From Bacilli bacterium (GTDB lineage Bacteria; Bacillota_I; Bacilli_A; ML615J-28; CAG-698), in the NCBI GenBank assembly GCA_017962745.1, contig JAGCUR010000012.1, forward strand, positions 1-64,000: a stretch of DNA of 64,000 nucleotides, written 5' to 3'. A program made the translations under genes and the position numbers. The notes under the pieces are model-generated. The model was not told the DNA's origin, ran no database searches, and saw only the letters and a program-made list of their open reading frames with translations. The stretch's first letter is position 1, and each line of letters starts with the position of its first letter. Of the stretch, positions 10,244 to 25,673 are shown piece by piece.

Positions 10244-10254
10244 GTTTTAAATAT

Positions 10255-10289
10255 TTGAAATGATACAATATGATTTGTATCATTTTTTT
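10255..10289 (+). repeat. 35-bp perfect repeat, copy 1; also the tRNA-Lys terminator
   Basis: Contains a 10-bp stem AATGATACAA/TTGTATCATT with a six-base loop and a seven-T tail, so it terminates tRNA-Lys. An identical 35-bp copy lies at 11987-12021, after the ATPase gene. The two copies enclose about 1.7 kb. Confidence 0.95.
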
Positions 10290-10593
10290 ATTACTTTTTA
10301 TTTCTTTTAAATATCTAAGAGGAAGAATTTCTGACTTTAATACATATCAAAAATGCAAAAATCTAAGTTCAAATATCGTTCAAATCTTTCAAGAGTGCAA
10401 CCGATATTTAATTCTGGTTTAGGATTTTCGCATTAAGACATATTTTTTCAACTATAGTGTTTATTCGGTTTTCTAGATAAAGTTAATATTACTTCAATAT
10501 AGATTTTCCCCTATATTTGAGGAAGACTAATATATTATTTAAATTTTTTGTGTCGAAATAGCTTTTAACAAGAATCTGTAAGATGAAAGACAA
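10290..10593. other. Non-coding stretch between tRNA-Lys and the ATPase promoter
   Basis: No credible open frame. The only structure seen is an imperfect nested hairpin at 10355-10431: an outer arm GCAAAAATCTA against TAGGATTTTCGC (mismatches and one G:U) and an inner 8-bp arm AAATATCG (10371-10378) with CGATATTT (10402-10409). It could be a relic or a small structured element. Confidence 0.4.
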
Positions 10594-10662
10594 CAAATAT
10601 TCGAAATAAAATACCTCAAATATACGAAATAAAAATGCCCAAATACTTGAAATTTAATACTA
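10594..10662 (+). repeat. Three tandem 23-bp repeats overlapping a promoter
   Basis: Units start at 10594, 10617 and 10640, each of form CAAATA-n-n-n-GAAAT followed by an A-rich stretch. The third covers the -35 box of the ATPase promoter. The same design with a 23-bp period appears before the gene at 24273. They look like binding sites on one face of the helix roughly every two turns; the binding protein is unknown. Confidence 0.8.
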
Positions 10663-10675
10663 AACGGGTTATAAT
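10647..10675 (+). promoter_or_regulatory. Promoter of the AAA_14 ATPase
   Basis: TTGAAA (10647-10652), 17 bases, TATAAT (10670-10675), 18 bases before the start codon. The -35 lies inside the third 23-bp repeat. Confidence 0.8.
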
Positions 10676-10693: not shown

Positions 10694-11974
10694 ATGGAAT
10701 ATAAAACAAGAATTGCAGATGAGTTTTTAAAAGATAAATTAGATACTTTTGGAGCGGTTTTAATTATTGGACCAAAAGGGTGTGGAAAAACAACAACAGC
10801 TAAACAACAGGCGAAAAGCATTATTGAGTTTCAGGATGAAACAAGAAGAGATCAATATTTAATCACAGCAAGGGATGCTCCTGAAATGCTTTTAATTGGT
10901 GATAAGCCAAGACTATTTGATGAATGGCAAGATGCACCTAAAATTTGGGGTTCTGTCCGTAAATCAGTAGATGATGAACAAAAAACAGGTTTATATATTT
11001 TAACTGGTTCAACCTCTAAAAATATTCAGGTTGCTCATACCGGTACTATGCGTATTAGCAGTATGAAAATGTATCCTTTGAGTTTATACGAATCTGGAGA
11101 ATCAAATGGTACAGTTTCACTTTTAGAACTTTTTAATAATCCAAATTCTTTTAAAGGTTGCATTTCAAACTTAACATTAGAAAAACTTATTTTTGCAATT
11201 TGCAGAGGTGGTTGGCCATCTTGTTTTAAAATTGGTAATAGTAGGAATAAGTTAAGTGTTGCAGATGATTTAGTGTATCAAATATGTAATAATGATATTT
11301 CTTCTGTTGATAATGTAAGAAGAAATCCAAAGTTAGCCAATGCAATTCTAAAATCTTATTCAAGAAACATTTGTACACTTAGTGATTATAAAACTATTTA
11401 TCAAGATGTTAAAGCGACAAATGAAATGTCTGATAGAAGTTTTAGCGAATATATTGAAGCACTAGAAAAACTTTATGTTATAGAAGATGTAGATGCATGG
11501 TGTCCCGCAATAAGATCAAAAACATCAATAAGATCTAGTAAAAAGAGAAACCTAATTGATCCATCTATTGCAGTTGCTTCACTAGGTATATCACCTGAAT
11601 ACTTTAATACTGATTTTAAAACACTTGGATTCTTATTTGAGTCATTATGCATTAGAGATTTAAAAGTATATTCATCTAAGATGCGAGGAGAAATGTCTTA
11701 TTACCATGATAGGTATGGTCTAGAAGCTGATGGTGTGTTACATTTAAAAGATGGTAGATATGCTCTATTAGAATTTAAATTGGGTTCTAGTGAAATTGAC
11801 GATGGTGCAAGACATCTTTGTGAAATTGAAAGATTAATTAAAGAATACAATAATAAAGAAAAACAAGTACCACTTAGACTCCCTGATTTAAAAATGGTAA
11901 TAACCGGTACGGAATACGGATATAAAAGAGAAGATGGAGTATTAGTCATTCCAATCGGTTGTTTAAAGGATTAA
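10694..11974 (+). CDS. AAA_14/DUF4143-type ATPase
   Basis: A 426-residue protein. Walker A is GPKGCGKT near residues 25-32; RLFDEWQDAP near 75 is the family Walker B-like motif; LTGSTS near 108 is the sensor region; MYPLSLYESGES and GGWPS are typical of AAA_14 proteins. The C-terminal DUF4143 part ends in LEADGVLHLKDGRYALLEFKLG, a PD-(D/E)XK-like pattern. The family is very common as mobile or accessory genes with no settled function. A GAGGTGA ribosome site precedes the start. It is enclosed by two identical 35-bp terminators and controlled by the 23-bp repeat promoter. Confidence 0.88.
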   Translation: MEYKTRIADEFLKDKLDTFGAVLIIGPKGCGKTTTAKQQAKSIIEFQDETRRDQYLITARDAPEMLLIGDKPRLFDEWQDAPKIWGSVRKSVDDEQKTGLYILTGSTSKNIQVAHTGTMRISSMKMYPLSLYESGESNGTVSLLELFNNPNSFKGCISNLTLEKLIFAICRGGWPSCFKIGNSRNKLSVADDLVYQICNNDISSVDNVRRNPKLANAILKSYSRNICTLSDYKTIYQDVKATNEMSDRSFSEYIEALEKLYVIEDVDAWCPAIRSKTSIRSSKKRNLIDPSIAVASLGISPEYFNTDFKTLGFLFESLCIRDLKVYSSKMRGEMSYYHDRYGLEADGVLHLKDGRYALLEFKLGSSEIDDGARHLCEIERLIKEYNNKEKQVPLRLPDLKMVITGTEYGYKREDGVLVIPIGCLKD

Positions 11975-11986
11975 AGAGGCAAATAA

Positions 11987-12021
11987 TTGAAATGATACAA
12001 TATGATTTGTATCATTTTTTT
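11987..12021 (+). repeat. 35-bp perfect repeat, copy 2; terminator of the ATPase gene
   Basis: Identical to 10255-10289, including stem-loop and T-tail. Lies 12 bases after the ATPase stop codon. Confidence 0.95.
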
Positions 12022-12043
12022 TATCCAATATTTGCGAAAACTG

Positions 12044-12072
12044 TTGAAATTGTATCGTTGCAACGATATAAT
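12044..12072 (+). promoter_or_regulatory. Autoregulated promoter of the DUF3990 module
   Basis: TTGAAA (12044-12049), 17 bases, TATAAT (12067-12072). The spacer holds a perfect 16-bp palindrome, TATCGTTGCAACGATA (12053-12068), reaching into the -10 box. A dimeric HTH antitoxin encoded downstream is the obvious candidate to bind it (inference). Confidence 0.85.
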
Positions 12073-12090
12073 TTATACAGAGGTGATATT

Positions 12091-12768
12091 ATGGAAAAAA
12101 TAGTTATTTATCATGGAAGTACAAATATTATTGAAAAGCCATCTCTTTCGCAAGGCCGAAGAAACAATGATTATGGCCCTGGGTTTTATTGCACATACAA
12201 TCTAGAAATGGCTAAAGAATGGGCGTGCAAACAAAACTCTGATGGTTTTGTTAATGAATATGAAATAGATATCAGTGAATTAAAAGTGCTTGATTTATTG
12301 GATGGGAAGCACACAGTTTTAAATTGGATAGCGTTATTACTGAACAATCGTATATTTCCAATTAATGATGAACTAGGTAGTGTTGCCAAGCAATTTATCT
12401 TGAATAACTACTTAATCAATGTTAGTGACTACGATATAGTTTGTGGCTATAGAGCAGATGATTCGTATTTTTCTTATGCACAATCATTTGTGCATAATGG
12501 AATGCCGGTTAGGTCTTTAACTGATGCATTAAAATTAGGTGACCTAGGCACTCAATTTGTATTAGTGTCTGAAAAAGCATTTGCTAGAATCAAATTTGTA
12601 AGAAGCATAAAAGTTAATAGAAATGAATATTATCCAAAATTCATCAATAGAGATTTAAGTGCTAGAACGAGTTATAAAGAAAACATCAAAAATGCAAAGG
12701 CATTAAAGGATGATGTTTTTATTATTGATATTATGAGAGGAGAAGATTTTAATGATCCACGCTTATAA
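12091..12768 (+). CDS. DUF3990 family protein, putative ADP-ribosyltransferase-like toxin
   Basis: A 225-residue protein starting MEKIVIYHGST; the ATG at 12091 follows AGAGGTG and the promoter. YHGS near 7-10, the YGPGFYCT segment and the following A-KEWA helix match the DUF3990 family, whose fold is related to ADP-ribosyltransferases (H-Y type core). A later F-VSEKAF segment is where a catalytic acidic residue is expected in the fold. It overlaps the next gene by 17 bases, which encodes an HTH protein, giving toxin-then-antitoxin order. The target is unknown. Toxin activity is inferred from family and context. Confidence 0.75.
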   Translation: MEKIVIYHGSTNIIEKPSLSQGRRNNDYGPGFYCTYNLEMAKEWACKQNSDGFVNEYEIDISELKVLDLLDGKHTVLNWIALLLNNRIFPINDELGSVAKQFILNNYLINVSDYDIVCGYRADDSYFSYAQSFVHNGMPVRSLTDALKLGDLGTQFVLVSEKAFARIKFVRSIKVNRNEYYPKFINRDLSARTSYKENIKNAKALKDDVFIIDIMRGEDFNDPRL

Positions 12769-13399
12769 CAATATATATGTAACTGATGCTCAAAGATTTT
12801 TGGCTCACGCTTTCGATTATGCGATAACGGATTGCAAGCTTGATGTTGATACATTTGGCTACATCTTTGCATCAAGCAATATCGCAAAAGAAATGGAAAG
12901 AGGAAACCCAAGAATTATATCAGGTATGGCAGGAGAGGAAGCTACGATAAAAATACTTAAAGATGTCAATCCAGGCATAATTCTCCCTGATTTATTTTTT
13001 AGCCAAAGCAAAACACCAGCCTACTGGGCAGGATGGGCGCTAGCATATTATCAATGGTTTACCGCCAGATCTTTCAAAGATATATTTATGCGAATACCGC
13101 TATCAATGATAATTGAAATGTACAATCCATACCATGAAATTGATTTAGTGTTATTTGTAGAAGAGTTGGAAAATAGATATAAAAGTGTAGTTCTAGATAC
13201 AAAACTTAAAATGATTCGTGAAGCTAGAGGCGTATCACAAAGAAAACTAGCTGAAATATCAGGTGTTACAAAAAGATCGATTCAATTGTATGAACAACGT
13301 GTTAATGATATCGATAAAGCGCAAGCGCAAACTATTTATAAATTATCAAGAGTACTAGGGTGTGAGATAGAAGATTTACTTGAAAACCCACAATTCTAA
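12752..13399 (+). CDS. Two-domain antitoxin-like protein with C-terminal XRE HTH
   Basis: A 215-residue protein. Residues 1-145 form a domain of unknown family that includes FSQSKTPAYWAGWALAYYQW and HEIDLVLFVEELE. Residues from about 150 to 210 are a clear XRE helix-turn-helix: IREARGVSQRKLAEISGVTKRSIQLYEQ. A GAGAGGAGA ribosome site sits inside the end of the DUF3990 gene, so translation is coupled. The likely role is to neutralise the DUF3990 protein with the first domain and repress the 12044 promoter with the HTH. Confidence 0.75.
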   Translation: MIHAYNNIYVTDAQRFLAHAFDYAITDCKLDVDTFGYIFASSNIAKEMERGNPRIISGMAGEEATIKILKDVNPGIILPDLFFSQSKTPAYWAGWALAYYQWFTARSFKDIFMRIPLSMIIEMYNPYHEIDLVLFVEELENRYKSVVLDTKLKMIREARGVSQRKLAEISGVTKRSIQLYEQRVNDIDKAQAQTIYKLSRVLGCEIEDLLENPQF

Positions 13400-24192: not shown

Positions 24193-24244
24193 AAAAAATA
24201 AAACCAACCAAATAGTTGAAATAAAACCAACTTTAAGATATAAT
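24193..24244 (+). promoter_or_regulatory. Promoter with 23-bp-period repeats before the AlbA_2 gene
   Basis: TTGAAA (24216-24221), 17 bases, TATAAT (24239-24244). AAATAAAACCAAC occurs at 24196 and at 24219, exactly 23 bp apart, the second overlapping the -35 box. CCAAATA-n-TTGAAAT is shared with the promoter at 10640-10675. Confidence 0.8.
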
Positions 24245-24272
24245 TTAGTTGGTATAAAAATAGGAGGTTATT

Positions 24273-25673
24273 ATGCAATTGGTGGAATTATTGAATGAAC
24301 TAACATCTTATGAATTTGAAAAGGAATGGTTTGAATTCAAATCTAATATGAAATCTTCTCATGAGATAGGAGAATATATTTCTGCAGTTTCAAATAGTGC
24401 TGCTTTATTAGGAAAAAAAGAAGGTTATCTTATATGGGGAATTGATGACACATTTAATTTTGAGTTTGGTAAACATCTAGCTAATGGAACTAAATTTGAT
24501 TTTGACTCAAATGCAGATAATAATGAGCCGTTGAAACATTACCTTGAAAGACAAATTAAACCAAGTATAAAAATTAATTTCGTTGAAGAGAAATATGAAA
24601 ATAAGAGAGTAGTCGTTTTAGTAATAGGAGCAGCTAGAACAATTCCAACTTCATTTGATTCCAAAAGATATATTAGAATTGGATCAAGCAAAGTGGATCT
24701 TTCTAAATTTCCTGAAAAAGAAGTAGACTTGTTTTACATATTACGTGAAGGAATACCTACTATTACAAATACTAAGTCGAAATATCAAGAACTTACATTT
24801 AGTAAGCTATTTGGTTTCTATGGATCAAAAGGTATTATTTTAAAAGAACCAACATTTAAGAAAAATCTAGAATTATTGACTGAAGACGGATCTTACAACA
24901 TTTTAGCTCAACTATTATCAGATAATTCCCAAATTCCATTGCGTGTATCAATATTTGACGGAGAAACCAAAGCTTCAAATTTATTTTCTGTTCGTGAATT
25001 TGGTTATAATTGCTTATTATATACTTTGGATGAACTTTTGCGTTATGGAGATGTATTAAATATTATCCAAGCAGATGAGAGAAATAGAGTTGTAGAAAGA
25101 AAGGATGTTCCGCTTTTTGATAGCAAAGCTTTTAATGAAGCAATTATAAATGCAGTTTTACATAACAAATGGATTGAAGGAAATGAACCTATGATTTCGG
25201 TTTATTCAAATAGAATCGAAATATTATCAAGGGGAACACTTGCTCCATCTCAAACTATGGATGGATTTTTAAGAGGTGAATCAGTCCCTGTAAATGAAAA
25301 ACTATCTGAAATCTTTTTGCAATTGCATATAAGCGAAAAATCAGGAAGAGGAGTACCTAAAATTGTTGAAACTTATGGTAAAGATGCAATTACTTTTAAT
25401 GAAAACTCAATTGTAGTCACTATACCATTTAATTGGATAAATGTGGTTGGTAATAAAGTTGGTAATAAGGTTGGCAATAAAAATCTTTCATCAAATAGAC
25501 AAATAATTATTAATGAATTAAGAAATAATCCGAATATTACAAAAGTTCAATTATCCACTATACTAGGTATTTCAACAACAGCGATTGATAAGAATTTAGA
25601 TTATTTGAAAAATAATGGTTTCATTGAAAGAATTGGTTCTAAAAAGACAGGTTATTGGAAAGTAACAAAATAA
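24273..25673 (+). CDS. AlbA_2-domain ATP-binding transcriptional regulator
   Basis: A 466-residue protein. Residues about 10-130 are the Schlafen/AlbA_2 domain (WFEFKSNMKSS ... GYLIWGIDD). Residues about 285-375 hold the HATPase_c_4-like region (FNEAIINAVLHNKW, then SGRGVPKIVETYG). A GNK repeat linker at about 392-403 joins a winged helix at 406-466 (ITKVQLSTILGISTTAIDKNLDYL). Such proteins are frequent accessory regulators, often moved between genomes, with undefined ligands. TAGGAGG lies before the start. It sits directly behind tRNA-Glu with its own repeat-bearing promoter. Confidence 0.88.
   Translation: MQLVELLNELTSYEFEKEWFEFKSNMKSSHEIGEYISAVSNSAALLGKKEGYLIWGIDDTFNFEFGKHLANGTKFDFDSNADNNEPLKHYLERQIKPSIKINFVEEKYENKRVVVLVIGAARTIPTSFDSKRYIRIGSSKVDLSKFPEKEVDLFYILREGIPTITNTKSKYQELTFSKLFGFYGSKGIILKEPTFKKNLELLTEDGSYNILAQLLSDNSQIPLRVSIFDGETKASNLFSVREFGYNCLLYTLDELLRYGDVLNIIQADERNRVVERKDVPLFDSKAFNEAIINAVLHNKWIEGNEPMISVYSNRIEILSRGTLAPSQTMDGFLRGESVPVNEKLSEIFLQLHISEKSGRGVPKIVETYGKDAITFNENSIVVTIPFNWINVVGNKVGNKVGNKNLSSNRQIIINELRNNPNITKVQLSTILGISTTAIDKNLDYLKNNGFIERIGSKKTGYWKVTK

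Follow-up and report, generated by a model that had tools for sequence, protein, structure and literature searches.

Conserved 23-bp promoter arrays of AAA_14-DUF4143 ATPase genes covary with the predicted recognition helix of the encoded protein and probably act as its private operators

The promoter of an ATPase gene carries head-to-tail units of 23 bp in the window (the whole stretch of 64,000 nucleotides analyzed, 32% G+C). The locus raises the question of which protein reads these units. The preliminary description had matched them to a second promoter in the window, that of an AlbA_2 gene, and had proposed either a shared regulator or element-specific control. Here, the evidence indicates that the ATPase gene is most likely autoregulated by way of an address of its own, since the wording of the repeats changes in step with the putative DNA-reading part of the protein itself.

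The array and the encoded ATPase

A sequence scan of the window placed the unit motif CAAATAnnnGAAAT at 10594, 10617, and 10640 with an exact 23-bp period, as described earlier. The promoter self-repeat score at lag 23 was 18, compared with a maximum of 13.5 among 100 dinucleotide shuffles. The promoter reads TTGAAA-17-TATAAT, and the last unit holds the -35 box, in agreement with the preliminary description. The features of the locus, with the method behind each, are as follows.

10249 to 10289, no strand: 41-bp direct repeat (tRNA-Lys terminator), the left of two copies that flank the ATPase gene (repeat search)
10571 to 10593, plus strand: possible degenerate upstream copy of the unit (profile scan counting 4 copies in the window)
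10594 to 10616, plus strand: array unit 1, CAAATATTCGAAATAAAATACCT (motif scan and self-repeat score)
10617 to 10639, plus strand: array unit 2, CAAATATACGAAATAAAAATGCC (motif scan and self-repeat score)
10640 to 10662, plus strand: array unit 3, CAAATACTTGAAATTTAATACTA, containing the -35 hexamer (motif scan and self-repeat score)
10647 to 10652, plus strand: -35 hexamer TTGAAA within unit 3 (sequence)
10670 to 10675, plus strand: -10 hexamer TATAAT, 30 bp past the first base of unit 3 (sequence)
10694 to 11974, plus strand: AAA_14-DUF4143 ATPase, 426 aa, PADLOC PDC-S01, the proposed array binder (domain and PADLOC searches)
11306 to 11503, plus strand: winged-helix region, residues 205-270, with helices 212-224, 232-240, and 247-259 (AlphaFold2 model)
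11432 to 11470, plus strand: predicted recognition helix, residues 247-259 (model and covariation)
11729 to 11779, plus strand: PD-(D/E)XK-like motif D346...E360-x-K362 (alignment conservation)
11981 to 12021, no strand: 41-bp direct repeat, the right copy, with 98% identity (repeat search)

A CRISPR-type array was ruled out, as the units lie head to tail upstream of the -10 hexamer without unique spacers. As a regulon test, the genome-wide motif search suggested at the outset came out negative: CAAATAnnnGAAAT gave 8 matches and its reversed control gave 10, and thus no regulon of loose motifs is indicated. The two-unit pattern had 2 perfect matches in the genome, both inside the array, and 8 matches in all, compared with 5 for a control pattern. 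No target-gene set emerged from the loose-motif, two-unit, or near-unit pattern searches of the genome.

The ATPase scored 55.5 bits for AAA_14 (Pfam cut-off 27) and 90.9 bits for DUF4143 (cut-off 28.1). Its AlphaFold2 model (mean pLDDT 94) contains a helix-turn-helix formed by residues 212-224, 232-240, and 247-259, and this winged-helix domain sits between the AAA+ and PD-(D/E)XK-like domains. In the family alignment (A1), D346 and K362 are invariant and E360 is nearly so; we take the D346...E360-x-K362 motif to resemble that of PD-(D/E)XK nucleases. In the fold search, residues 1-298 matched best the archaeal ATPases 2qen (Z 15.0, rmsd 4.2, 254 aligned) and 2fna (Z 14.1, rmsd 4.2, 253 aligned). 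NLR and CED-4 chains came next (Z 11-12), and Cdc6/Orc chains were among the Foldseek matches of the model.

The protein matched the PADLOC models of PDC-S01 (PDLC04790, E 2e-48), as did the paralogues L009, L011, and L012. By status, PDC-S01 is a phage-defense candidate, reported in PMC12988326 as the fourth most common defense system across prokaryotes; in the rumen survey of PMC13356809, no other single locus is reported to be as frequent. The open-licence literature searched yielded no description of a PDC-S01 promoter array or of self-recognition, no PDC-S01 mechanism, and no match for autoregulated AAA defense genes. The accessible parts of PMC12988326, PMC13356809, and PMC5760070 describe no promoter repeats for the ATPase family, and no promoter-array or self-recognition terms were found in that of PMC12988326.

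Conservation of the period, promoter phase, and paralogue classes

The repeats had been open to dismissal as a coincidence if relatives lacked them, but the ATPase array is conserved. Close relatives were drawn from 80 loci encoding proteins of 64-86% identity, with L075 left out because only 76 bp lay upstream. The best promoter self-repeat lag was 23, 46, or 69 in all 79 (59, 18, and 2, respectively), and 70 of the 79 promoters beat all 50 shuffles. Among 186 promoters of neighboring genes at the same loci, these lags were best in 7. Lag 23 scored above 99% of 200 shuffles in 105 of 106 first-set class-A promoters and above 99% of shuffles in 81 of 82 later-fetched promoters. It was also kept in 8 of 9 plasmid or phage loci (Bacteroides, Prosthecochloris, Collinsella, Actinomyces, and Azotobacter included), down to about 25% protein identity. 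The exceptions were L090 in the first set, L330 in the later set, and L358 in the plasmid/phage set.

These sets include relatives, and the 106 first-set loci correspond to 72 clusters at 90% identity and 43 at 75%. L168 and L172 (class A, miscalled start) were kept outside the 106, and the gene of L168 was retested later as L281. The later set comprised 87 of 119 listed places, from which L255, L259, and L272 (duplicates) and L266 and L267 (short upstream) were dropped, while the near-duplicates L256-L258 were retained.

The 23-bp array spans Bacillota, Bacteroidota, Chlorobiota, Actinomycetota, Spirochaetes, and archaea. Three archaeal MAG contigs carry it, one of which (L151) has adjoining Rpb7-N and DUF359 genes, presumably an archaeal context. 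Relatives of the ATPase were present in 173 of 72,556 plasmid records; viral contigs gave 6 pattern matches, with a relative confirmed in none. Thus, the period is fixed across relatives while the unit sequence drifts. L358, a distant relative on an Agrobacterium plasmid, showed lag 44 (23+21?), possibly an altered pitch in Rhizobiaceae. Several of the 12 strong-repeat control promoters (L091 at 4062, L114 at 4099, L117 at 206, L120 at 2336, and L154 at 265) showed lags 23, 31, 33, or 66 and may be unlabeled family members.

The array is also phased to the promoter. When only the -10 hexamer was considered, the last unit most often began 18-20, 29-31, or 41-43 bp before it; a lesser cluster lay at 13 bp (8 of 80), and other distances also occurred. 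A second scoring, which used the -35 as well, gave a phase periodicity of 11.5 bp (R 0.53, n=92 cluster representatives); it may be biased because the units contain TTGAAA-like letters, and the -10-only count agrees with it in kind. At the commonest distances, the last unit thus lies over the spacer, over the -35, or immediately upstream of it, and mostly keeps the helical phase. This position suits a repressor in most loci, a sign that, like cooperativity, we infer.

Other DUF4143 clades bear 31-34-bp arrays or dyads in place of the 23-bp array. In the window's own genome, paralogue L012 has three direct-repeat copies at 34 bp and L011 a direct repeat at lag 33, each with a sequence of its own. 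Promoter architecture follows the protein tree: among 99 DUF4143 proteins, 8 changes were required, compared with a shuffled mean of 42.6 (23-bp label, 3 versus 30.0; ~33-bp label, 5 versus 16.0). All 37 rows with the 23-bp period fell within one clade of 40, and all 17 with the ~33-bp period fell within one of 22. The tree was built with FastTree from 27 of the 80 close loci and 72 others, and its branch support and long branches call for caution. The paralogue set consisted of 29 loci, 40 of ~150 listed places, and 4 own paralogues, with L048 dropped because no start was found. By this label, the 37 rows of the third clade lack a tandem repeat, and many of them show an inverted repeat over the promoter, e.g., L069 and L167; of the 37 loci examined, only some had inverted-repeat scores above those of all 50 shuffles, and this class is therefore termed dyad-like.

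Unit sequences also differ within a genome. Among four paralogues of G016, unit similarity was 0.34-0.40 in five of the six pairs and 0.49 in the sixth, with a background mean of 0.41. L028 and L037, from different genera with proteins 87% alike, share a unit (similarity 0.55). For annotation, 23-bp arrays, 31-34-bp arrays, or dyads can serve to mark DUF4143 subfamilies. A G+C-rich 29-bp element was found in exactly four copies in the genome, all on contig C4 of the window's own genome (70413, 74314, 76524, and 77814; L383-L386), within 7.5 kb amid three DUF4143 genes, as if in stacked cassettes.

Unit sequence and the predicted recognition helix

After correction for overall identity, the partial covariation between unit and protein peaked at residues 241-270 (r 0.224, family-wise p 0.003), and flanking DNA given the same treatment had no peak there. 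Control DNA beside the start codon peaked elsewhere, at residues 371-400 (p 0.002), so the permutation null must be regarded as lenient. In per-column partial correlations, zero columns fell below a family-wise p of 0.05, and the case for covariation is carried by the residue-window test together with the mutual-information test.

By mutual information with APC, the top residue-base pairs among 390 x 23 were R248-9 (10.4 sd), D247-7 (7.3 sd), and R248-10 (6.4 sd) at 90% weighting. At 75% weighting, R248-9 was the only helix pair left in the top ten. D247 and R248 of the window's ATPase, which covary with unit positions 7 and 9-10, lie at the start of the predicted recognition helix. Lys247 occurred with G at position 7 in 42 of 42 cases (19/19 on 90% representatives), and Glu247 occurred with C there in 25 of 31 (19/25). 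At position 9, Pro248 was paired with A or T in 46 of 46 (21/21 on 90% representatives), Lys248 with G in 7 of 7 (likewise 7/7), and Gln248 with C in 10 of 11. These pairings appear to make chemical sense.

The residue-base rules were written before further loci were fetched. On the new loci, the three rule scores were 24/41 (13.4 expected), 29/49 (14.7), and 19/24 (9.4), none of which was matched in any of 2000 permutations. The Arg247 rule failed (2/9). Among phylogenetically independent pairs, the contrast of Lys with Glu at 247 agreed with G at position 7 in 5.6 of 6 and that of Ser/Thr with Pro at 248 agreed with position 10 in 6.2 of 9, with 0 against in both. The pairing of Gln/Asn248 with C9 was unsupported in this test (1.5 for and 1.0 against, of 5). 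In general, the array sequence covaries with the putative recognition helix encoded downstream, and more weakly at 75% weighting.

Alternative explanations and the proposed operator

The second promoter at issue is that of the AlbA_2 gene, with the following features.

24196 to 24208, plus strand: first copy of AAATAAAACCAAC, a probable half-site in an operator belonging to the AlbA_2 gene itself (scan and relatives)
24209 to 24226, plus strand: single ATPase-type unit CAAATAGTTGAAATAAAA (wildcarded genome search)
24219 to 24231, plus strand: second copy of AAATAAAACCAAC, 23 bp downstream (motif scan)
24248 to 24253, minus strand: inverted half-site GTTGGT, directly after the -10 at 24239-24244 (sequence)
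24273 to 25673, plus strand: SLFN_AlbA_2 / HATPase_c_4 / winged-helix gene (domain search)

The 13-mer at 24196 and 24219 and its 23-bp spacing were confirmed, with a repeat score of 13 versus a maximum of 11 in 100 shuffles; in a second run, 1 of 50 shuffles was equally good, which is borderline. CCAAATA-n-TTGAAAT and TTGAAA-17-TATAAT are indeed present at both promoters. The repeat had been said to end on the -35 box, but the second 13-mer begins inside that hexamer (24216-24221), and what overlaps the -35 is the single CAAATAGTTGAAAT unit at 24209. Of 30 loci with AlbA_2 relatives, 28 were submitted (L215 and L216 are fragments) and 25 were scannable; lag 23 was best in one of these 25 promoters, that of the window's own gene. 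The relatives bear other repeats or ACCAAC...GTTGGT dyads, and close relatives (L197-L199) have ACCAAC...TTGGT dyads around the -10. The two ACCAAC units and the GTTGGT at 24248 fit this dyad pattern, and the 23-bp spacing is therefore probably a coincidence. Other promoter repeats, e.g., 11-12-bp direct repeats, were seen at L200, L203, L205, L207, L209, L210, and L212, with a tandem TTTTCTGGTTG at L210, which suggests that the AlbA_2 family also autoregulates, in a manner of its own.

One host or element regulator binding 23-bp-spaced sites at both promoters is thus an unlikely explanation. It draws on CAAATAGTTGAAATAAAA at 24209, which lies 30 bp from the -10, as does unit 3; outside the ATPase array, no other site in the 1.54-Mb genome fits CAAATANTNGAAATAAAA without a mismatch. 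However, the wildcards of CAAATANTNGAAATAAAA were chosen after the AlbA_2 site was seen, at up to two mismatches the genome has 24 matches versus 35 for the control, and TTGAAA-17-TATAAT is an ordinary promoter. Moreover, the period is absent from AlbA_2 relatives, the genome has no two-unit array elsewhere (8 matches versus 5 for the control), and the units differ among the paralogues of one genome and follow the ATPase protein. As a rule, the shared regulator is not supported; its narrow version keeps the lone CAAATANTNGAAATAAAA match, at which cross-binding by the ATPase is possible. Element-specific control is strongly supported in a gene-by-gene form, the array being a trait of the ATPase family that follows the recognition helix of the ATPase itself.

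The position behind a tRNA, also noted earlier, is incidental. In G021, of the same genus, a UmuC homologue directly follows tRNA-Lys, so both the ATPase gene and the DUF3990/HTH pair appear to have been inserted in the window. The latter (11959-13399, a DUF3990 gene and then an HTH_3 gene, with the palindromic GTATCGTTGCAACGATAT over the promoter) resembles a toxin-antitoxin-type pair with its own operator. A single-gene mobile cassette with the repeats as recombination sites would agree with this empty site, with the wide horizontal spread of relatives, and with the tRNA-Lys terminator duplicated on the far side of the gene (41 bp, 98%). Flanking repeats scored at least 16 at 11 of 75 loci versus a control maximum of 13, and those of L118 and L144 (132 and 155 bp) bracket the ATPase gene. 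However, the other 64 loci have none at that score, the bracketing repeats lie outside the array and are unrelated to it, and recombination leaves the -10 phase and the covariation unexplained. Some loci do have genuine flanking repeats, but these are no general feature, and the cassette was rejected as a general reading; it is very improbable as the origin of the array.

Hardly any weight falls on replicon-type iterons, i.e., an initiator-binding site, relic or active, for the replication of a small element. Direct repeats beside an AAA+/winged-helix gene do resemble plasmid iterons, Cdc6/Orc chains appear in the fold search, and plasmids carry the relatives counted above. However, the examined loci are mostly chromosomal or on draft contigs, the array lies within a promoter and is phased to its -10, and the best fold matches are 2qen and 2fna rather than initiators. 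AT-rich coincidence, to which 32% G+C and the borderline AlbA_2 repeat (1/50 shuffles) would lend themselves, is refuted for the ATPase array by its conservation in nearly all tested loci, the out-of-sample test, and the neighbor-gene control, but may hold for the AlbA_2 spacing.

We therefore return to the private operator. Judged from sequence comparison, it is highly probable that each ATPase binds the array on its own promoter and thereby regulates its own gene, with repression as the likely outcome. Several subunits would dock their winged helices on successive 23-bp units, perhaps assembling cooperatively, and the last bound unit, overlapping or abutting the -35 or spacer, would control transcription of the ATPase gene itself. 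The effect would most likely be repression, a sign taken only from the position of the array, and a trigger, possibly phage infection, could release the protein. The period and the protein fold are conserved while the bases read and the recognition helix diverge together, which would give paralogues in one genome separate addresses. For a PDC-S01 candidate, the array thus points to a likely DNA ligand, to the helix predicted to read it, and to part of the reading code, and it suggests a way in which coexisting paralogues could avoid interfering with each other.

It is doubtful that the array is, beyond a dimmer switch, part of the defense mechanism itself. In that scheme, a STAND-like ATPase-nuclease would at rest form a polymer on the 23-bp units that serve as its address; both 23 and ~33 bp amount to whole helical turns with a slight offset. 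It would be stripped off by phage DNA, by an inhibitor from the phage, or by a rival copy sharing that address, freeing nuclease and transcription together. If so, address diversification would insulate paralogues, and the family would consist of allele-specific, self-addressed single-gene systems.

Among known systems, the window's protein belongs with the COG1373-like AAA_14-DUF4143 ATPases of PDC-S01, whose PADLOC models it matches. It shares an AAA+ and winged-helix core with the archaeal ATPases SSO1545 (2fna) and PABY2304 (2qen) (Z 14-15) and with the STAND ATPases NLR and CED-4 (Z 11-12). Unlike these, it adds a C-terminal PD-(D/E)XK-like domain outside the part that was matched, and it appears to use its winged helix to read DNA at its own promoter. 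In autoregulatory operators and plasmid iterons, a promoter carries direct repeats that are bound by the product of the gene it drives, and the window's array likewise lies on the promoter of the gene for its proposed binder. In contrast to those systems, the ATPase arrays keep their spacing across phyla while their sequence diversifies with the recognition helix, and each ATPase paralogue would have its own address.
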